NCBI GenBank assembly: GCA_902617025.1
Contig: CACMVB010000006.1
Location: 1 to 64,000 of the forward strand
Length of the DNA: 64,000 nucleotides
From: an uncultured Pelagibacteraceae bacterium
GTDB taxonomy: Bacteria > Pseudomonadota > Alphaproteobacteria > Pelagibacterales > Pelagibacteraceae
Reading direction: 5' to 3'
Below are positions 1 through 7,771 of this stretch, piece after piece. Under the pieces are notes generated by a model. That model was given only the letters and a program-made list of their open reading frames with translations, made no database searches and was not told the origin of the DNA. Position numbers and translations under genes: made by a program. Within the stretch, counting starts at the first letter, position 1, and each line of letters opens with the position of its first letter.

Positions 1-137
1 TAGAAAAATTAGAAGATTTAGAGCTTCTAGGATTTCTCGAAAACCAAATTAAGGTAAAGATGATTAAATTGTCAGATCAATCTATTTCAGTTGATAATCC
101 ATCTGATATAAAAAAGGTTGAGAGGATACTAAAGTAA
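1..137 (+). CDS. KdsB-type CMP-sugar cytidylyltransferase, C-terminal fragment
   Basis: This is the last 44 codons of a gene cut by the window edge; the reading frame begins at base 3 and stops with TAA at 135-137. The visible tail has a helix rich in Leu/Glu (EKLEDLELL), a Lys-rich strand, and an ending of the type V-D-N-P-S-D-I-x-x-V-E. This matches the C-terminus of 3-deoxy-manno-octulosonate cytidylyltransferase (KdsB), which couples an acidic keto-sugar to CMP. Only the tail is seen, so the substrate is unknown. It lies 3 nt upstream of an aminotransferase and probably belongs to the same operon as the aminotransferase, SDR and aldolase genes that follow. Confidence 0.65.
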   Translation, partial: EKLEDLELLGFLENQIKVKMIKLSDQSISVDNPSDIKKVERILK

Positions 138-140
138 TTT

Positions 141-1217
141 ATGAGTAACTTCATTTACGAAAAAAAAAAAATTAGTATAGTTAAAAGATTACGGATAGCT
201 GAAAATAGAGATTTAAAAAAAGGACTTAGACTCAATAGAAATGAGAGAGTTGATAATTATCCAAAAAATATTTTCAAAAAAATTTTTACAAGTGCAAAAG
301 AATATGACTTAGGAAAATATCCTGATCAAAGTAAAATTTACAAAACATTATCAAAATTTATTGGATTTAAGGAAAAAAACTTTATAATTTCATCTGGTAT
401 CGATGGAAGTATAAAAAGTATTTTTGAGATATTTACTGATGCGGGAGATAAAATTGCTTTACTGTACCCAACTTATGCTATGTATGAAGTTTATAGCAAG
501 ATATTTAAAACAAGACTTTTTAAAATTGGATACACTAATTTTAAGCTAGATAAAGAAAAACTCTATAAAACAATTAAAACAAAAAAAATTAAGATATTAT
601 TTATTCCAAACCCTAACCAACCTATCGAGGATGTTATCTCTTTAAATGAGATGAAAAAAATATGTAAGATTTGTAAAAAAAATAAAGTTTTATTAGTAGT
701 TGATGAAGCTTATCATATGTTCGGTGCCCCAACTTCAGCTAGCCTATGCAAAAAAAATGAAAATATTATAATTCTAAGAACACTTTCTAAGTCTTTTGGA
801 TTACCATCGATAAGATTTGGATATGTAATTGGCCACGAAAAATTAATTAATATTTTTCAAAGTTATAGATTAGCTTACGAAAGCAACTTTTTCTCAGATA
901 AGGTAGTCGAATATTTTGTTAAAAATTTTTCTATTATTTCAAGTTATATAAAGGAAGTAAAAAAAGGACGAAATTATTTTAAAAAGGAAATTGAGAAATT
1001 AAATTTAAAAGTAATTGGAAATAAATCAAACTTTTTATTAATAGATTTTAAATCTAATATATTACTAAAAAAAATAATTAATATATTTGAAAACAAAAAA
1101 ATTTATGTCAAATCAAATTATAAAGGAGCCTTAAGCAATTGCATATTAGTTACTTGCGGAACAAAAAAAAACATGAAAAAACTTGTAAATATTATCCGCA
1201 AAGAAATTAAACAATGA
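141..1217 (+). CDS. PLP-dependent class I/II aminotransferase (HisC-like fold)
   Basis: A 358-residue fold-type I aminotransferase resembling histidinol-phosphate aminotransferase. It has an NPNQP segment near residues 157-161, the PLP-ring Asp188 with Tyr191 (VDEAY), and the Schiff-base lysine in TLSKSFG at Lys217, followed by Arg225. Family members transfer an amino group from glutamate or another donor to a keto group. Its place between a KdsB-type cytidylyltransferase and an SDR plus aldolase in a polysaccharide region suggests it modifies a sugar or sugar-acid precursor rather than making histidine; this is inference. Its stop overlaps the next ATG (ATGA, 1214-1217), so the two genes are translationally coupled. 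Confidence 0.8.
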   Translation: MSNFIYEKKKISIVKRLRIAENRDLKKGLRLNRNERVDNYPKNIFKKIFTSAKEYDLGKYPDQSKIYKTLSKFIGFKEKNFIISSGIDGSIKSIFEIFTDAGDKIALLYPTYAMYEVYSKIFKTRLFKIGYTNFKLDKEKLYKTIKTKKIKILFIPNPNQPIEDVISLNEMKKICKICKKNKVLLVVDEAYHMFGAPTSASLCKKNENIIILRTLSKSFGLPSIRFGYVIGHEKLINIFQSYRLAYESNFFSDKVVEYFVKNFSIISSYIKEVKKGRNYFKKEIEKLNLKVIGNKSNFLLIDFKSNILLKKIINIFENKKIYVKSNYKGALSNCILVTCGTKKNMKKLVNIIRKEIKQ

Positions 1218-2137
1218 ATGTTATAATAACAGGTGGAAATGGTTTTGTAGGCACAAAGCTAGCTGAAAAATTTAATAGCCATGGACATAAAATTTTTTTG
1301 TTAGATTATAAAAAAAAATCACAAAACAAAATTTTTTTAAAAAAAGGTAAATTTAAAAAAGTTGATATTACATCTTTTAAATCGCTTGAAAAAGTTCAAG
1401 TTCCAAATAATGCAATTTTATTACATTGTGCTGGACAACCATCTGCTGCTGTGTCTTTTAAGAGGCCCTTTGATGACCATAAAAAAAATATTTTGGGAAT
1501 GCTAAATATAATTAAATTTGCAAAGAAAAAGAAAGTAAAAAAAATTATCTTTGCTTCAACTTTTAATATTTATAAAGAAAACTTTAGATTTACAAAACTT
1601 AAAGAAAATTCTGAGTGTAAGCCAAAATCCTTATATGCAATTTCAAAACTAGCAGCAGAAAATTACTTAAAGGTTTATGGTGGTCACTTAGGTTTAAAAT
1701 GGAATATATTAAGAATGTTCAATATTTATGGACCAGGACAAGATAAAAACAACAAAAATCTTGGTATGATAAGCATCTTTCTTAACATGGCAAAAAATAA
1801 TTCTAATGTTTTGGTAAAAGGTAGTTTGAAAAGATTTAGAGATTTTATTTATATTGATGACGTTACCGAGGCTTGGTATCGACTAGCATTAGATAATAAA
1901 AATTATAATAAGACATATAATTTGGGATCTGGAAAAAAAACAACTTTAAAAAAATTATTTAATCACATTGAAAAAACTATTGGAAAAAAAATCAATGTTA
2001 AGGAAGCAAAAGGTACTCCTGGTGATTTTTTAGGCTGTTACGCTGATATTAATAAGATTAAAAAGGATTTAAAATTTAAACCAAAAATAAATCTCAGCAA
2101 AGGATTAAAACTTTTTAATAATTGGCTGAGTGAATAA
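1214..2137 (+). CDS. NAD-dependent epimerase/dehydratase (extended SDR)
   Basis: A 307-residue extended short-chain dehydrogenase. The nucleotide-binding motif GGNGFVG is at residues 7-13 and the catalytic pair YxxxK is Y141/K145 (YAISK), with Thr116 at the usual Ser/Thr position. The later FNIYGPGQ and RDFIYIDD segments are typical of nucleotide-sugar 4-epimerases and dehydratases. It probably oxidises, epimerises or dehydrates a nucleotide-activated sugar for the surface glycan; the exact substrate cannot be read from sequence. It is tightly packed with the aminotransferase upstream (4-nt overlap) and the aldolase fusion downstream. Confidence 0.85.
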   Translation: MNVIITGGNGFVGTKLAEKFNSHGHKIFLLDYKKKSQNKIFLKKGKFKKVDITSFKSLEKVQVPNNAILLHCAGQPSAAVSFKRPFDDHKKNILGMLNIIKFAKKKKVKKIIFASTFNIYKENFRFTKLKENSECKPKSLYAISKLAAENYLKVYGGHLGLKWNILRMFNIYGPGQDKNNKNLGMISIFLNMAKNNSNVLVKGSLKRFRDFIYIDDVTEAWYRLALDNKNYNKTYNLGSGKKTTLKKLFNHIEKTIGKKINVKEAKGTPGDFLGCYADINKIKKDLKFKPKINLSKGLKLFNNWLSE

Positions 2138-2138
2138 T

Positions 2139-3716
2139 ATGAAATTAAATTTGTTAGATTGCACTCTTCGTGACGGTGGATATTATAATAATTGGGCATT
2201 TGATAATAAATTAGTCAAAAACTACATTTCAAATATTAAAAAATCTAATATTGACATAATTGAAATTGGATTTCGTTTTTTCAATAATAACTCATGCGGT
2301 AAATTTGGTATAACCAAAGAAAATCTAATTAAAGATTTTAATTTTGGCAAAAATCAATCATTAGCAGTTATGATTAATAGTGCAGATTTAGCAGATGATA
2401 AAGATTTTCAAAAAAAAATAAAAAATCTTTTTGTAGAAAAAAAGAATTCTAATATAAATTTAGTAAGATTTGCCACTCATTTAAAGGATGTTAAAAAGAT
2501 TATACCTAAAATGAGATATATCAAAAAATTAGGTTATGACACTGCTTTAAACTTGATGCAAATTGATAAAATAACACCTAATCAATTAATCAAAGTTCTT
2601 AAATTAATAGATAAAAGTAATGTAGTCGATGTTTTTTACTTTGCAGACTCATTTGGAAATTTAAATACAAAAAAAGTTAGAGATATATGTAAGATAATAA
2701 AAAATAATTGGAATAAAGACTTTGGGTTTCATGCCCATGATAATTGTGGACTTGCACTCAAAAACAGTGTGTGTGCCATTAATAATGGCGCTAATTGGAT
2801 TGACTCTACAATTATGGGCATGGGCAGAGGAGCAGGCAATGTAAGCACAGAGGAAATTTTAAAAAAATTAAAAAAAAAGAAAGAAAAAAAATACAACCTT
2901 GATCCAGTGCTGAAACTTGCAAATACTTACTTTAAACCTTTAAAAATAAAATATAAATGGGGTAAATCACAATATTATTTCTTATCAGCCAAAAAAAATA
3001 TACACCCTAGTTATATTCAAGAAATTTTGGTTGATAAACGTTATAACCATAGTCAAGTTGTTGAGATAATTAACGATTTATCAAATTTAAAAGCAAGCTC
3101 ATTTAATCCATTAATGCTTAAAGATTTAATAAATGAAAAAACAAATGGTAGTTGGAATGCAAAAAATTGGTGCAAAAACAAAAATATTTTAATACTCGGT
3201 CAAGGTAAGAGTATAAAAAATGATAGAAATAAAATTTTAAAATTAATTAAGAAAAATTCTTGTAAAGTTCTATCGTTAAATATCAATAAGATGATTGAGG
3301 AAAAATATATAGACCACTTCTTAGCATGTCATGAGTCAAGGGTAATGATAGATTCAAAAAAATATATAAAATATTATAACAAAATGATTGTACCTACTGA
3401 CAGATTTAAAAATATTTTGAAAAAAGAATTATCAAAAAAAATTAAAAATTACGGGATGGTAGTTAAAAAAAATTCTTTTAAACAATATAAAAAATATTGT
3501 GAATTACCAAGCAATTTAGCCATAGGTTATGCTATCTCACTTTGTTTGATTGGCAAATCATCAAAAATTTTTTTAGCAGGATTTGATGGATACAAGAATA
3601 ACCATATTCTAAACTTAGAGATGAATAACTTTTTTCAAATTTTAAATAAAAAATATCCGTCGTTAAAATTAGTTAGTATTACTAAAACTCATTATAAACT
3701 TAAAACTGCCAAATAA
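2139..3716 (+). CDS. HMGL-type aldolase fused to a GPG-S-like C-terminal domain
   Basis: The N-terminal ~340 residues form a DRE-TIM metallolyase barrel: the DCTLRDGG start motif and the HAHDN metal-binding motif (about residue 198 from this start) are those of 4-hydroxy-2-oxovalerate aldolase and HMG-CoA lyase relatives. The last ~180 residues form a separate domain opening with ILILGQGKSI and containing LAGFDGY, resembling the Rossmann-like DUF115/MptE-type domain; that match is tentative. An in-frame GTG at 2130 could add three residues and overlap the previous gene; ATG 2139 sits just before the conserved barrel. Such aldolases make or cleave C-C bonds with pyruvate-type enolates. Context suggests synthesis of an unusual acidic or amino sugar. 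Confidence 0.75.
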   Translation: MKLNLLDCTLRDGGYYNNWAFDNKLVKNYISNIKKSNIDIIEIGFRFFNNNSCGKFGITKENLIKDFNFGKNQSLAVMINSADLADDKDFQKKIKNLFVEKKNSNINLVRFATHLKDVKKIIPKMRYIKKLGYDTALNLMQIDKITPNQLIKVLKLIDKSNVVDVFYFADSFGNLNTKKVRDICKIIKNNWNKDFGFHAHDNCGLALKNSVCAINNGANWIDSTIMGMGRGAGNVSTEEILKKLKKKKEKKYNLDPVLKLANTYFKPLKIKYKWGKSQYYFLSAKKNIHPSYIQEILVDKRYNHSQVVEIINDLSNLKASSFNPLMLKDLINEKTNGSWNAKNWCKNKNILILGQGKSIKNDRNKILKLIKKNSCKVLSLNINKMIEEKYIDHFLACHESRVMIDSKKYIKYYNKMIVPTDRFKNILKKELSKKIKNYGMVVKKNSFKQYKKYCELPSNLAIGYAISLCLIGKSSKIFLAGFDGYKNNHILNLEMNNFFQILNKKYPSLKLVSITKTHYKLKTAK

Positions 3717-4666
3717 TGAATTGTAAAATTTGTGAATCTAAATGTAAAAAAAAAAAAATTTTAACAAGGTCAAATAATAGATTAAATCTTTTTTATTGTA
3801 AAAAATGTGATTTCGAATATTTTTCACATAATCCAAAAAAAAAACTAGTTTTAAATAAATTAAATATATCAAGGTTAAAGAAAGCAGGTCTTCAAATTCC
3901 AAGCTATAACGAAGACTTTAATAATGGACTTACCCAATCCAAAAACTATATAAAAAAATATATTAAAAAAAACGATAAAAAGAAAAAAATATTAGAAATA
4001 GGATGTAGTTTTGGATATTTTTTATATTCTCTTAAAAAAAAAGGTTTTTCAAATGTTTATGGTCTTGAAATTAATAAAGTATGTAAAAATTTCGTTAATA
4101 ATAAACTTAAAATTCCATGTTTTACAGATTTAAAGAATATCAAAGAAAATGTATTATTTGATAAAATTTTCTTATTTTATAGTTTTGAATATATTCATGA
4201 TCCAAAAGATTATTTAAAAAAATTATTTTCGAAACTAAATAAAAAAGGAAAAATTTATATAATTACACCTAATAAAAGAGACGTTTTAAAAGATATAGTT
4301 CCAGGAAGTAATTTTAAAAATTTTTTTTATGATATTAGCTCAGTAAATTATTTTTCAAAATTAAGTTTTCAGATATTAGCTAAAAACTTAAAATTGAAAA
4401 ATTATTCAATAAAAACTAATCAAGGGTACAGTTTAGCAAATTTATTTCAATGGTATCTCAACAAAAAACCAATGAAGACCAATCTAGTTGGTGAAGATAA
4501 ATACATTGAAGGACTTATTCAAGATATTAGATATAGTAAATTCCAACAAAATAATTTAAAAAAAAAAATAATTTCATTGATTAATTCAACTAACCATGAA
4601 TATAAAAAAATACTTTCAAAATACAATTATGGAAATCAAATAATTTTTTATATTGAGAAGAGATAA
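3716..4666 (+). CDS. SAM-dependent methyltransferase with N-terminal zinc-ribbon-like motif
   Basis: A 316-residue class I methyltransferase. The N-terminus has paired cysteines C3/C6 and C28/C31, suggesting a small zinc-binding knuckle, and the SAM-binding motif I is ILEIGCSFG at residues 92-100. This arrangement resembles sugar methyltransferases of surface-polysaccharide and secondary-metabolite clusters. It likely methylates a sugar or lipid-linked glycan in the cytoplasm. The ATG shares its first base with the TAA stop of the aldolase gene, so co-translation is likely. The acceptor and whether it methylates C, N or O cannot be judged. Confidence 0.75.
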   Translation: MNCKICESKCKKKKILTRSNNRLNLFYCKKCDFEYFSHNPKKKLVLNKLNISRLKKAGLQIPSYNEDFNNGLTQSKNYIKKYIKKNDKKKKILEIGCSFGYFLYSLKKKGFSNVYGLEINKVCKNFVNNKLKIPCFTDLKNIKENVLFDKIFLFYSFEYIHDPKDYLKKLFSKLNKKGKIYIITPNKRDVLKDIVPGSNFKNFFYDISSVNYFSKLSFQILAKNLKLKNYSIKTNQGYSLANLFQWYLNKKPMKTNLVGEDKYIEGLIQDIRYSKFQQNNLKKKIISLINSTNHEYKKILSKYNYGNQIIFYIEKR

Positions 4667-4670
4667 TTAA

Positions 4671-5978
4671 TTGACACAAACAAAAATCTTAGAACAAATA
4701 AAAAAAATCGTTAAGAGTAATCTAATTCTCGAACCTGAAATCTCTATAAGTGATTACTTTTTTTTTACATCATGGTCGGATTCCTATGGGAAATGGAATT
4801 TAAATAAAATTTTAAAAAAAAGAATAAACTTCTTTGAAAATTTAAATTACCTAATTAAATACGCAATTATTTATTCTATTGCAGATCTAGAAAAATATAA
4901 ATTAACTTACTCTAAAAAAAAAAATAAAAGTCAAAACTTAATAATTTCCTATACTAACAATTATAAATTATTAAAAAATTATGATAATTATTTTTCTTGT
5001 GTAATCAAAAAATCAAATAAAACCAGATGGTTTCTGATTAATTTAGATAGATTCAAGAGAATAAAAAATTTGCCATATAATCTAACAGTTTTATCTAAAC
5101 AGAAAAACTACTTTTACTTTAATTTAAAGTTTTATTTAAATATCTTCAAATTTATATTTTTTATATTATTTTTTAAAAAAAAAATTTATGATGATAAGTT
5201 TTTTGATACATTAAAGAGTGGAATTTTACAAATATTAAAAAAATCAAACTTTTCAAAGATTTATATTCCATATGAGTCACAACCTCATCAACATCAAATT
5301 ATAAAAATAATAAAATCATTTGATAAAAAAATCAAAATAATCGGATATTTACATTCAAGCTTGACTCCATTACCCACTGATTTTATTTACAAAAAAAAAT
5401 ACGAACCTGATATTTTAATTGTTCATGGATTAGCACAAAAAGAGATCTTAGTTAAACACTTAGGTTGGCAGAGTAAAAATATAAGAAATTTAAAATCTTT
5501 TAGATACACAAAAAAATCAAAAAGTTTTTTTACAAATAAACTTTTTTTGCCATTTTCTTTAAACAAACCTGACAAATTGAAATTTAATATGAAAAATTTT
5601 TTAGAATTATATAGTATTAAAATAAATCAATTTAATATTGTTAATCATCCACTCATGCTTAATTCTACAAAACATAAAAATTTTATTAATGAAATTAAAA
5701 ATATACAAACTTTAAAAAAAAATTCTAAAAATCAGATCAAAAATATCTCAATTGTTGTAGGAGTGTCAGCTATTATTTTAGAGATGCTTGAAAATAATAT
5801 CGAGGTAATCCATATTTGTTCAGAACCGATCTTTGAGAAACATTCTAGTGAGATATGGAAGAATATTATTGTAAAAGAATTAGTTAAAGGTGTTTATAGT
5901 TATAAAATTAAAAAGGTCAAATCACTAATAAATTTTGGAAAAAAAAATGAATTCCAAAATAAATGTAAAATTTACTAA
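4671..5978 (+). CDS. Putative GT-B-like surface-carbohydrate protein, function not recognised
   Basis: A 435-residue protein starting at TTG 4671, four bases after the preceding stop. I do not recognise the family with confidence. Residues around 200-260 read as a Rossmann-type half (YIPYESQPHQHQ, GYLHSSLTPLP, ILIVHGLAQKEIL), and near residues 365-385 a GVSAIILEMLENNIEVI stretch resembles the nucleotide-sugar side of GT-B glycosyltransferases, where S/A-x-x-L-E-A-L precedes a change-of-strand motif. A hydrophobic stretch near residues 155-170 may touch the membrane. Placement among polysaccharide genes supports a glycosyltransferase or related transferase role. It could also be a polymer-modifying protein of unrelated chemistry. 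Confidence 0.5.
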   Translation: MTQTKILEQIKKIVKSNLILEPEISISDYFFFTSWSDSYGKWNLNKILKKRINFFENLNYLIKYAIIYSIADLEKYKLTYSKKKNKSQNLIISYTNNYKLLKNYDNYFSCVIKKSNKTRWFLINLDRFKRIKNLPYNLTVLSKQKNYFYFNLKFYLNIFKFIFFILFFKKKIYDDKFFDTLKSGILQILKKSNFSKIYIPYESQPHQHQIIKIIKSFDKKIKIIGYLHSSLTPLPTDFIYKKKYEPDILIVHGLAQKEILVKHLGWQSKNIRNLKSFRYTKKSKSFFTNKLFLPFSLNKPDKLKFNMKNFLELYSIKINQFNIVNHPLMLNSTKHKNFINEIKNIQTLKKNSKNQIKNISIVVGVSAIILEMLENNIEVIHICSEPIFEKHSSEIWKNIIVKELVKGVYSYKIKKVKSLINFGKKNEFQNKCKIY

Positions 5979-5999
5979 AATGATATTATAATAAAAATT

Positions 6000-6698
6000 A
6001 TGAAAGTGGTTATAATGTGCGGAGGGCTTGGATCAAGATTGGGAGATGAAACTAAGAAAATACCTAAACCAATGGTTAAAATTGGATCTTATCCAATTTT
6101 AGAGCATATCATGCAGATATATAAAAAAAATGGTTTCGACGATTTTATTTTAGCTACTGGATATAAGCATAATATTATTAAAAAATATTTTTCTAAACAC
6201 AAAAAATTTCAAAAAGTAAAGATTTTAAATACTGGTGAGAAAAGTTTAACTGGTAGAAGATTGTATAAACTTAAAAAGATCTTATCAAATGAGAAAAAAT
6301 TTATGCTAACTTATGGTGACGGACTTACAAACCAAAAAATAAAAAATTTAATCACATTCCATTTAAAAAGTGGTAAAGTTGCAACGTTAACTGCGGTAAG
6401 GCCACCAGTTAGATTTGGCGAAATAAAATTGAATCGATCTAAAGTTACTGGATTTGCCGAAAAACCTCAGGCGACTAATGGTTGGATTAATGGGGGTTTT
6501 TTTGTTTTTGATAAAAAAATTTTTAATTTTCTAGATAATTCTAATGTAATGCTTGAAAGAAAACCAATGCAAAAACTCTTAAAAAAAAAAGAGCTAAGTG
6601 CTTTTAAACACTATGGAGATTGGCAATGTATGGACACTGTAAGAGAAAAAAATCTTTTAAATGATATGTACAAAAAAAATAAACATTTTTGGAGGTAA
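6000..6698 (+). CDS. rfbF: Glucose-1-phosphate cytidylyltransferase-type nucleotidyltransferase
   Basis: A 232-residue nucleotidyltransferase converting a hexose-1-phosphate and CTP (or another NTP) to the NDP-sugar. The signature GGLGSR is at residues 8-13, PKPMV at 22-26 and YGDG at 105-108 (metal-binding Asp107); the ending GDWQCMDTVREK matches RfbF, which is about 255 residues. The next gene is a clear CDP-glucose 4,6-dehydratase, which strongly favours CDP-glucose as product. Its stop codon lies just downstream of a GGAGG that serves the next gene. Confidence 0.88.
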   Translation: MKVVIMCGGLGSRLGDETKKIPKPMVKIGSYPILEHIMQIYKKNGFDDFILATGYKHNIIKKYFSKHKKFQKVKILNTGEKSLTGRRLYKLKKILSNEKKFMLTYGDGLTNQKIKNLITFHLKSGKVATLTAVRPPVRFGEIKLNRSKVTGFAEKPQATNGWINGGFFVFDKKIFNFLDNSNVMLERKPMQKLLKKKELSAFKHYGDWQCMDTVREKNLLNDMYKKNKHFWR

Positions 6699-7771
6699 GA
6701 CTGCTTTTATCAAATTTTTATAAAAATAAAAAAATATTAATTACAGGTGTCACTGGTTTTAAAGGCTCTTGGTTAGCATCATGGCTATCTATACTTGGAG
6801 CAAAAGTTTATGGTATTGGATATCAGCCAAATCAAAATAAAAAACTTTTTTATGATCTGAGATTAACAAAAAAAATTAACTTTAGTTTTGTCGATGTTAG
6901 AGATTATAAAAAACTAAATCAAAAAATAAAACGTATTAAACCGTCAATAATATTTCATCTTGCTGCTCAGCCATTAATATACGAATCATATAAAAAACCT
7001 TATTTGACCTTTGATATTAACATCAACGGAACGCTAAATATTATGGAAATAATCAGAAAATCTAAATTTATAAAGTCTGCAATAATCGTGACTTCAGATA
7101 AGTGTTATGAAAGTAATAATTCTACAAAAGGATTTAAGGAGGGGGATAGGCTTGGAGGCATAGATCCATATAGTGCTTCTAAAGCTAGTGCAGAGCTGAT
7201 TACAAGAGCTTATAATAAAAGTTTTTTTGGAAACAGAAAAAATAAATGTGGCGTATCCACTGGCCGTGCTGGAAATGTTATTGGTGGCGGAGATTGGTCA
7301 AAAAATAGATTAATACCGGACACAATTATTTCTTTAAAAAATAAAAAAAAAATTATTATAAGAAATCCGAATTTTAATAGGCCTTGGCAGCATGTTTTGG
7401 AACCTTTGAAAGGGTATTTAATTTTAGCCTTAAGGCAATACAATAACCCAAAAAAATTCTCATCAGCTTGGAATTTTGGTACAAAACCAAATAATGTGAC
7501 TAGTGTGAAAAAAATTGCTGAATATATAATTAAATTTTGGGGTAGTGGTAATTTAAAAGTTAAAAAAAATAAAATTTATGAGCAAACAAATTTACAGCTT
7601 AATATAAAAAAATCTCAAAAAAAATTAAAATGGAGTCCAACATACAACATTAAAGAAAGTGTAAAACTAACTACCGACTGGTACAAAGAAGTTTTAATTT
7701 TTAAAAAATCTTCAGAAAAAGTAACCTACAATCAAATAATTAAATATATGTATGACAGTAAAATCAATTAA
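6689..7771 (+). CDS. rfbG: CDP-glucose 4,6-dehydratase
   Basis: An extended SDR of up to 360 residues that converts CDP-glucose to CDP-4-keto-6-deoxyglucose using tightly bound NAD. Counting from TTG 6689, the Rossmann motif ITGVTGFKGSW spans about residues 18-28, HLAAQPLI follows near 90, SDKCY near 136-140, and the catalytic YSASK is Y161/K165; GGGDW and the RPWQHVLEPL segment are diagnostic of RfbG. No ATG is available near the N-terminus. Either TTG 6689 or CTG 6701, the latter five bases after GGAGG, must be the start. The 3' end overlaps the next gene by 20 nt. Confidence 0.92.
   Translation: MEVRLLLSNFYKNKKILITGVTGFKGSWLASWLSILGAKVYGIGYQPNQNKKLFYDLRLTKKINFSFVDVRDYKKLNQKIKRIKPSIIFHLAAQPLIYESYKKPYLTFDININGTLNIMEIIRKSKFIKSAIIVTSDKCYESNNSTKGFKEGDRLGGIDPYSASKASAELITRAYNKSFFGNRKNKCGVSTGRAGNVIGGGDWSKNRLIPDTIISLKNKKKIIIRNPNFNRPWQHVLEPLKGYLILALRQYNNPKKFSSAWNFGTKPNNVTSVKKIAEYIIKFWGSGNLKVKKNKIYEQTNLQLNIKKSQKKLKWSPTYNIKESVKLTTDWYKEVLIFKKSSEKVTYNQIIKYMYDSKIN
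6691..6695 (+). promoter_or_regulatory. Strong Shine-Dalgarno GGAGG for rfbG
   Basis: GGAGG lies inside the last codons of rfbF. It is five bases upstream of an in-frame CTG at 6701 and directly after a TTG at 6689. It decides between two non-ATG starts for rfbG and favours CTG 6701. Confidence 0.6.

Follow-up and report, generated by a model that had tools for sequence, protein, structure and literature searches.

A two-domain HMGL-type aldolase linked to CMP-sugar synthetases in SAR11 and other bacteria suggests a pyruvate-aldolase route to CMP-activated ulosonic acids

Genes for sialic-like acids and for acids resembling 3-deoxy-manno-octulosonic acid (Kdo) are usually sought through NeuB and KdsA. 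The edge of a contig from an uncultured Pelagibacteraceae bacterium raises the question why an HMGL-type aldolase should instead stand next to a CMP-sugar synthetase. The window analyzed here is a stretch of 64,000 nucleotides (assembly GCA_902617025.1, contig CACMVB010000006.1, here C6, positions 1 to 64,000) of a SAR11-type genome of 1.04 Mb, called G000 in the following; compared loci carry labels of the form L038. As a preliminary description of this DNA had proposed, and as family matches and gene joints confirmed, the contig edge carries a single tight operon composed of the tail of a KdsB-type gene, a HisC-like aminotransferase (AT), an extended short-chain dehydrogenase/reductase (SDR) and an HMGL aldolase of two domains (Table 1). 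The joints between these genes and a following methyltransferase (MT) gene are +3, -4, +1 and -1 bases, and throughout the first 6 kb of the window all genes lie on the same strand with joints of -4 to +4 bases. The aldolase starts at an ATG at position 2139 or, alternatively, at a GTG at position 2130, which opens a 528-aa frame.

The linkage of these genes, the conserved residues of the aldolase, the fold of its fused domain, and the presence of a second aldolase family, HpcH/HpaI, beside KdsB in matching SAR11 blocks point to a route in which a pyruvate aldolase, not a phosphoenolpyruvate (PEP)-dependent synthase, leads to a CMP-activated 3-deoxy-2-ulosonic acid (Kdo- or sialic-like) for a surface glycan. 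We regard this route as rather probable. The preliminary description had envisaged a C-C bond made from a pyruvate-like unit, followed by amination and CMP activation of an unusual headgroup; taken as a whole this interpretation is partly supported, and it did not include a HAD (haloacid dehalogenase-like) phosphatase, the HpcH/HpaI aldolase or, on contig C13 of G000, what is probably the remaining half of the KdsB gene.

To define the conserved unit, relatives of the aldolase and their neighbors were collected. The two-domain protein (open frame of at least 500 aa, E ≤ 1e-36) was present in 16 of 200 genomes, its own included, while 398 evenly drawn Pseudomonadota species gave three matches at E ≤ 1e-40, again with its own and one only over residues 1-251; its distribution is therefore patchy. 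Single-sequence scans of genome contigs and viral contigs gave no relative, whereas a profile scan found relatives in Halomonas, Idiomarina, Marinobacter, Pseudomonas, Paracoccus, Rossellomorea, Prochlorococcus, Omnitrophota and others. Of these relatives, at least 585 in number, the 80 best were carried forward, so that the locus set leans to close relatives; near-identical strains were retained. Four of the 98 source stretches had no aldolase open reading frame (ORF) in the ORF caller (L072, L075, L107, L132), and after removal of duplicates (L064, L066, L067, L103) and short or unclustered stretches (L135, L140, L143) 87 loci remained.

Because ORF calling went wrong in some GC-rich loci (L073, L093), neighbors were recounted in six frames. 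A same-strand cytidylyltransferase accompanied the aldolase in 80 of the 87 loci, in 78 within 4 kb and in 59 directly downstream; the best-scoring family of these 78 was KdsB-like in 58 cases and PseF/NeuA-like in 20. Seven loci had none in the available stretch (L085, L088, L104, L108, L126, L137, L141). By ORF calls, a cytidylyltransferase came next after the aldolase in 58/87 loci compared with 101 of 1128 ORFs overall, an enrichment for which a binomial test gives P ~1e-39 if loci are independent, which they are not. Within equal 1.5-kb flanks, a cytidylyltransferase was found at 15 of 16 aldolase loci from the same order and at none of 13 other HMGL-domain loci, a control made up of all 13 weaker-matching loci, 11 or fewer of which belong to that order. 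The sole miss was the window itself, because it is cut at the contig edge. The tie between the aldolase and CMP activation that had been suggested from the window alone is thus borne out.

A HAD gene lay within 4 kb in 57/87 aldolase loci, and together with a cytidylyltransferase in 55; an SDR (E < 1e-20, anywhere in the stretch) occurred in ten and an AT in two. The conserved unit is the aldolase with a CMP-sugar synthetase, often joined by a HAD phosphatase. The exact four-gene set, whose co-occurrence the preliminary description had put forward, was rejected as that unit because the AT is present in only two loci. The unit appears in bare form, in tandem, on Leisingera plasmids, annotated there as aldolase, 3-deoxy-manno-octulosonate cytidylyltransferase and HAD hydrolase. 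A phosphonate-type pathway, which also combines CMP activation with an HMGL enzyme, was considered and rejected, the partner families being KdsB/PseF-like and HAD; no PEP mutase turned up in general family scans, among which no search was aimed at that enzyme.

The HMGL-like family PF00682 matches residues 6-260 of the 528-aa frame (E 8.1e-30, 104.5 bits against a gathering cut-off of 29), and no other Pfam family matched the protein at E ≤ 0.001. Its closest solved chain is 3dxi, BVU_2661 of Bacteroides vulgatus (E 4.3e-51), followed by DmpG-type aldolases; 3dxi shares the motif LDCTLRDGGYY with the window protein and is the top fold match of its whole-protein model (pLDDT 82). The crystal differs in holding the N-terminal domain only, with the C-terminal part absent. 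We know of no tested function for 3dxi, nor of an assayed member. Residues R11, D12, H198 and H200 align with R17, D18, H200 and H202 of DmpG (1nvm), which bind pyruvate and metal. In an alignment of 80 relatives of 500-560 aa each of the four is kept in 79 rows, and N202 in 79 or 80. At the metal and substrate sites, which the preliminary description had left for checking, the metal and pyruvate residues are thus kept.

The position of DmpG His21, the catalytic acid/base, is occupied by Tyr15 in the window aldolase and by Tyr in 78/80 rows, so that the acid/base step probably differs. This replacement, together with the deposition of 3dxi as a putative aldolase only, would suit an HMGL domain that performs no aldol chemistry or another reaction (Claisen or lyase), with the C-terminal transferase-like domain as the working part. 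Such a reading appears improbable in view of the four residues kept in nearly all rows and of the KdsB pairing repeated by the unrelated pyruvate-aldolase family HpcH/HpaI (see below). In comparison with the 4-hydroxy-2-oxovalerate aldolases DmpG/BphI, barrel, arginine and metal ligands align; the window protein differs by its scores below the DmpG-type NCBIfam cut-offs (100.3 against 286 bits for TIGR03217, 114.5 against 229 bits for NF006049), by Tyr15, by the fused second domain and by its place in a surface-glycan island, and the dehydrogenase that is the usual partner was not noticed beside it.

The C-terminal domain, modeled alone with AlphaFold2 on 69 aligned members, gave a confident model (pLDDT 93.1, pTM 0.91). 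When Foldseek candidates were realigned with VIA-align, which is more sensitive, Maf (5mu5) came first (Z 13.5, root-mean-square deviation 3.3 over 178 residues), followed by the GT42 sialyltransferase CstII (1ro8; Z 11.0, 3.8 over 165 residues), HPPK (11.0), a Pasteurella sialyltransferase (11.0) and SteA (10.5), with thiamine pyrophosphokinases at about 9 and mammalian sialyltransferases at 7-8. At E ≤ 0.1, 26 of the 69 members, but not the copy in the window, matched the Maf/MptE family PF01973 (best 2.8e-7). PMC11339370 describes the PF01973 domain of Maf as similar to CstII and reports a Maf enzyme that takes CMP-Neu5Ac and CMP-Kdo as donors. Given the likeness to Maf and CstII and the adjoining CMP-ulosonate synthetase, a CMP-ulosonate transferase or sensor is the natural reading of the modeled domain; a pyrophosphokinase-like role is possible as well. 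Maf flagellin glycosyltransferases and CstII differ from the window protein in that the latter lacks a PF01973 match and is fused to an aldolase, and its transfer function is a prediction. The label 'GPG-S-like' given to this domain earlier is ambiguous, as it may stand for GpgS or for a GxGxS motif (ILGQGKSI is present), and the fold aligned best with Maf/GT42. The GpgS family was absent from the Pfam matches of the 69 members and from the 50 VIA-align matches listed, and a GPG-synthase reading was set aside, having no support among the family and fold matches listed.

Only the tail of the KdsB gene is visible in the window because contig C6 starts there. Among NCBIfam models it is matched best by one for a KdsB subfamily (E 9.1e-9, model positions 203-245 of 250), the 44 residues present in the window giving 34.8 bits against a cut-off of 193. 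Contig C13 of G000 breaks off within a KdsB gene, of which it retains an N-terminal piece (L159:5664-6047). This fragment and the window tail match separate parts of the gene L038:18559-19332, residues 15-141 with 69% and residues 211-251 with 68% identity, respectively; for the C13 fragment that gene is the best match once the fragment's own locus is set aside, and for the tail it shares the best score. The two pieces are thus probably one gene, interrupted where the assembly lacks some 70 codons. The full-length KdsB gene of G000 at C2:111320, which we infer to be the housekeeping copy, is 28% identical to the tail and 35% to the fragment, and the idea that the tail belongs to the housekeeping gene was rejected. 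On C13, positions 3-6047 (L159), likely the upstream continuation of the island, an asparagine synthetase-like gene, a 575-aa protein without a Pfam match and a weak 2-oxoglutarate-oxygenase match precede the KdsB N-terminal half.

A tree of 70 KdsB rows (ORFs above 150 bits, the C13 fragment and the C2 gene, which sits on a long branch; midpoint root) split into groups of 52 and 18 rows with support 100/97. The C13 fragment fell into the larger group. The other rows there are no more than three genes away from an HMGL aldolase, save for the L038 gene, placed elsewhere within an aldolase-bearing locus. The group of 18 includes the C2 copy, the KdsB sequences from HpcH-linked blocks and those of L087, L094, L110 and L113, with the aldolase-linked KdsB of L038/L039 as an exception among them. 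Against TIGR00466 (cut-off 155.2), the partner enzyme of L039 passes with 168.9 bits, and those of L041 (152.1) and L046 (134.9) fall below. The cytidylyltransferase of the cassette is thus distinct from the presumed housekeeping KdsB: the tail is distant from the C2 copy, and its probable other half groups with the aldolase-linked enzymes.

The genome also holds a single KdsA match, on another contig (C3:147307-148074) and not in the cassette. Its presence, and genes in the islands of L038 and L039 that look NeuB-like by eye, would fit an aldolase that runs backwards to trim or recycle an ulosonic acid made by a KdsA or NeuB homologue, in the manner of N-acetylneuraminate lyase. We consider this highly improbable. 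Lysis leaves unexplained both the link with CMP activation and the phosphatase in over half of the loci, and the surroundings of the pair in the window, C13 and Leisingera showed, by eye and annotation and with no dedicated NeuB search, no recognizable NeuB- or KdsA-type gene.

We next consider the AT (Aminotran_1_2, PF00155, E 1.6e-41; HisC model TIGR01141, 214.4 bits, below the cut-off of 276.55) and the SDR (Epimerase, PF01370, E 2.4e-46). The AT was surveyed in 20 further SAR11 loci plus the window, with weaker matches in G005, G010, G069 and G128 left out. A cytidylyltransferase lay near it (five genes upstream to six downstream) in 17 of these 21 loci, a 30-bit KdsB match in L185 being scored as absent, and the protein termed GTc14 in 14, once on the other strand. 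KdsB, AT and SDR are contiguous in the order of the window in four further loci (L161, L162, L163, L181; 39-44% identity for AT, 43-49% for SDR), and in L161 and L162 the SDR is followed by an MT 43-45% identical to that of the window. Considered part by part, the proposed co-occurrence thus stands for AT and SDR with KdsB in other SAR11 genomes and fails for AT with the aldolase, although an HMGL aldolase does occur together with an AT in L187 and L093.

The HMGL fusion is absent from the stretches of all four blocks. In the three with visible upstream DNA, an HpcH/HpaI aldolase lies upstream of KdsB instead (PF03328, E 5.3e-30 in L161 and 4.6e-22 in L163; by a custom profile in L181), preceded in L161 by a HAD gene. 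An HpcH/HpaI protein at E ≤ 1e-50 was found in 10 of 397 genomes, giving ten SAR11 loci, and not in G000. KdsB follows it directly in eight of the ten (L161, L163, L181, L202-L206); in L200 KdsB lies four genes upstream, and in L201 another cytidylyltransferase lies three genes upstream. The seven that are not AT loci contain neither an AT nor the HMGL fusion. Two unrelated pyruvate-aldolase families are thus paired with KdsB-type genes, and within the KdsB-AT-SDR block one is present where the other is absent; no other observation hints as strongly at a need for pyruvate aldol chemistry. Among the papers listed by a literature search, none was seen to describe the pairing of HpcH/HpaI with KdsB.

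While the aldolase and KdsB may make a CMP-ulosonate, AT and SDR could serve another product of the same operon, for instance a small amino headgroup such as serinol phosphate derived from a keto phosphate. The rarity of AT in aldolase loci speaks for this, as do the several different gene orders in which AT relatives occur and the HisC-like nature of the AT, a family that acts on a keto phosphate. A precedent (PMC11800397) is Cj1437 of the Campylobacter capsule, which transaminates dihydroxyacetone phosphate to serinol phosphate. The frequent neighborhood of AT and cytidylyltransferase and the five contiguous KdsB-AT-SDR loci, the window included, argue for a common product, and we hold separate products to be rather unlikely.

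For the favored pyruvate-aldolase route we infer the direction of the aldol step, its substrate and product and the roles of AT and SDR as follows. The HMGL domain would couple the enolate of pyruvate with an aldose or its phosphate, giving a 3-deoxy-2-ulosonic acid or its phosphate; where present, the HAD enzyme would remove the phosphate, a step that is putative here since G000 gave no match to the HAD protein of L041. The KdsB-type enzyme would then form CMP-ulosonate with CTP, for use by a transferase, either the fused Maf/GT42-type domain or a neighboring protein, for example GTc14. In the present lineage the sugar would be further modified by AT and SDR, in the simplest case through oxidation of a hydroxyl and its replacement by an amino group; amination of the keto acid itself is possible, and the MT may add a methyl group.

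Like the Kdo pathway (KdsA, KdsC, KdsB), the scheme joins a C3 unit to an aldose phosphate and uses a HAD phosphatase and KdsB-type activation, and both families were matched in relatives. It differs in that an HMGL-type aldolase replaces KdsA, a PEP enzyme of another family, while a KdsA and a further KdsB are present at other places in G000. The Shewanella KdnA/KdnB route to 8-amino-Kdo, which starts from ordinary Kdo, also oxidizes, transaminates and CMP-activates an ulosonic acid; the AT here is HisC-like. The KdnB step is described in PMC5125639. KdnB is an iron-containing alcohol dehydrogenase, whereas an SDR is found here.

Several observations weigh against the pyruvate-aldolase route. 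Besides Tyr15 and the AT in only two aldolase loci, no HAD gene was found within 4 kb in 30 of the 87 loci, and no relative of the L041 HAD in G000, which is a weak test. L022, a relative with a single domain, lacks a cytidylyltransferase within its short flanks. Five non-SAR11 loci (L068, L086, L087, L094, L110) carry both aldolase types, so that HMGL and HpcH/HpaI are not simple substitutes, and in L087, L094 and L110 the KdsB that follows the HpcH/HpaI gene is outside the 52-row group. As to the fused domain, HPPK, SteA and thiamine pyrophosphokinases resemble its fold as well; the first Foldseek match was HPPK of Methanocaldococcus (E 1.8e-4), and Maf and CstII were absent from the best 50 Foldseek matches listed.

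More tentatively, and as a possibility we do not favor outright, anabolic metal-dependent pyruvate aldolases may constitute a third logic beside PEP-dependent KdsA and NeuB, with independent HMGL and HpcH/HpaI origins, each with its own KdsB-like groups, and with the HMGL enzyme joined to a sialyltransferase-fold domain and feeding, in this SAR11 lineage, an oxidation-amination branch to an amino-ulosonic acid on the cell surface. Among the open-access papers listed by literature searches, which makes for a weak negative, none was seen to describe CMP activation together with an aldolase of the HMGL or HpcH type. The encounters of bacteria with phages, predators and hosts are shaped by sialic- and Kdo-like acids. 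If pyruvate aldolases do make such acids, the resulting glycans could be going unnoticed in SAR11, Halomonas, Idiomarina, Marinobacter and other bacteria with the fusion; the aldolase fusion would serve as a marker, and with its three genes the Leisingera version is compact enough to be assayed in one pot.

Table 1. Genes and domains at the start of the window.
Feature	Position	Strand	Basis
KdsB-type (CTP_transf_3) CMP-ulosonate synthetase, C-terminal 44 codons, frame 3	3..137	+	NCBIfam KdsB models
HisC-like pyridoxal phosphate-dependent aminotransferase (AT)	141..1217	+	PF00155; SKSFGL lysine motif
Extended SDR (GalE/dehydratase-like)	1214..2137	+	PF01370; GGNGFVG and YAISK motifs
Two-domain HMGL-type pyruvate-aldolase fusion	2139..3716	+	PF00682; closest solved chain 3dxi
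Aldolase domain (DRE-TIM barrel)	2139..3137	+	R11, D12, H198, H200, N202 conserved; aligned to DmpG 1nvm
C-terminal Maf/GT42-type domain, 192 aa	3138..3713	+	AlphaFold2 model and fold comparison
S-adenosylmethionine (SAM) methyltransferase (MT), same syntenic block	3716..4666	+	PF13489
GTc14, 435 aa, candidate CMP-ulosonate transferase	4671..5978	+	no Pfam/NCBIfam match; conserved motifs

Downstream of these genes, at 6000-7771, a glucose-1-phosphate cytidylyltransferase-like gene and a CDP-glucose 4,6-dehydratase form a second CTP-dependent sugar branch adjoining the cassette. With these CDP-glucose-type genes the first part of the window looks like a surface-glycan island, of a kind known in SAR11 (PMC2217521); in the main text of that paper the words 'aldolase' and 'CMP' do not occur.

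GTc14 matched none of the families in Pfam and NCBIfam and no PDB sequence at E ≤ 10. In seven aligned members PYExQPxQ, H228 and HP at 326-327 are invariant, its relatives are found close to AT and KdsB genes, and we consider it a candidate for a new glycosyltransferase family. A regular-expression search for HP/SS-type motifs gave nothing useful, and the neighboring proteins of about 600 aa were too diverse for a usable alignment. The order AT, GTc14, a protein of about 246 aa, KdsB and a protein of about 370 aa is kept in the SAR11 loci L165, L169, L182 and L183, where neither aldolase type is labelled among the genes shown. Near the aldolase, radical SAM genes (of the SPASM type or with a B12-binding domain) recur in L038, L039, L088, L093, L104 and L141, some of them assigned by clustering or by eye. 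An iron-sulfur gene resembling the circadian protein LdpA occurs in the aldolase cluster of L087, assigned by Pfam, and of L082, L094 and L110, assigned by clustering.

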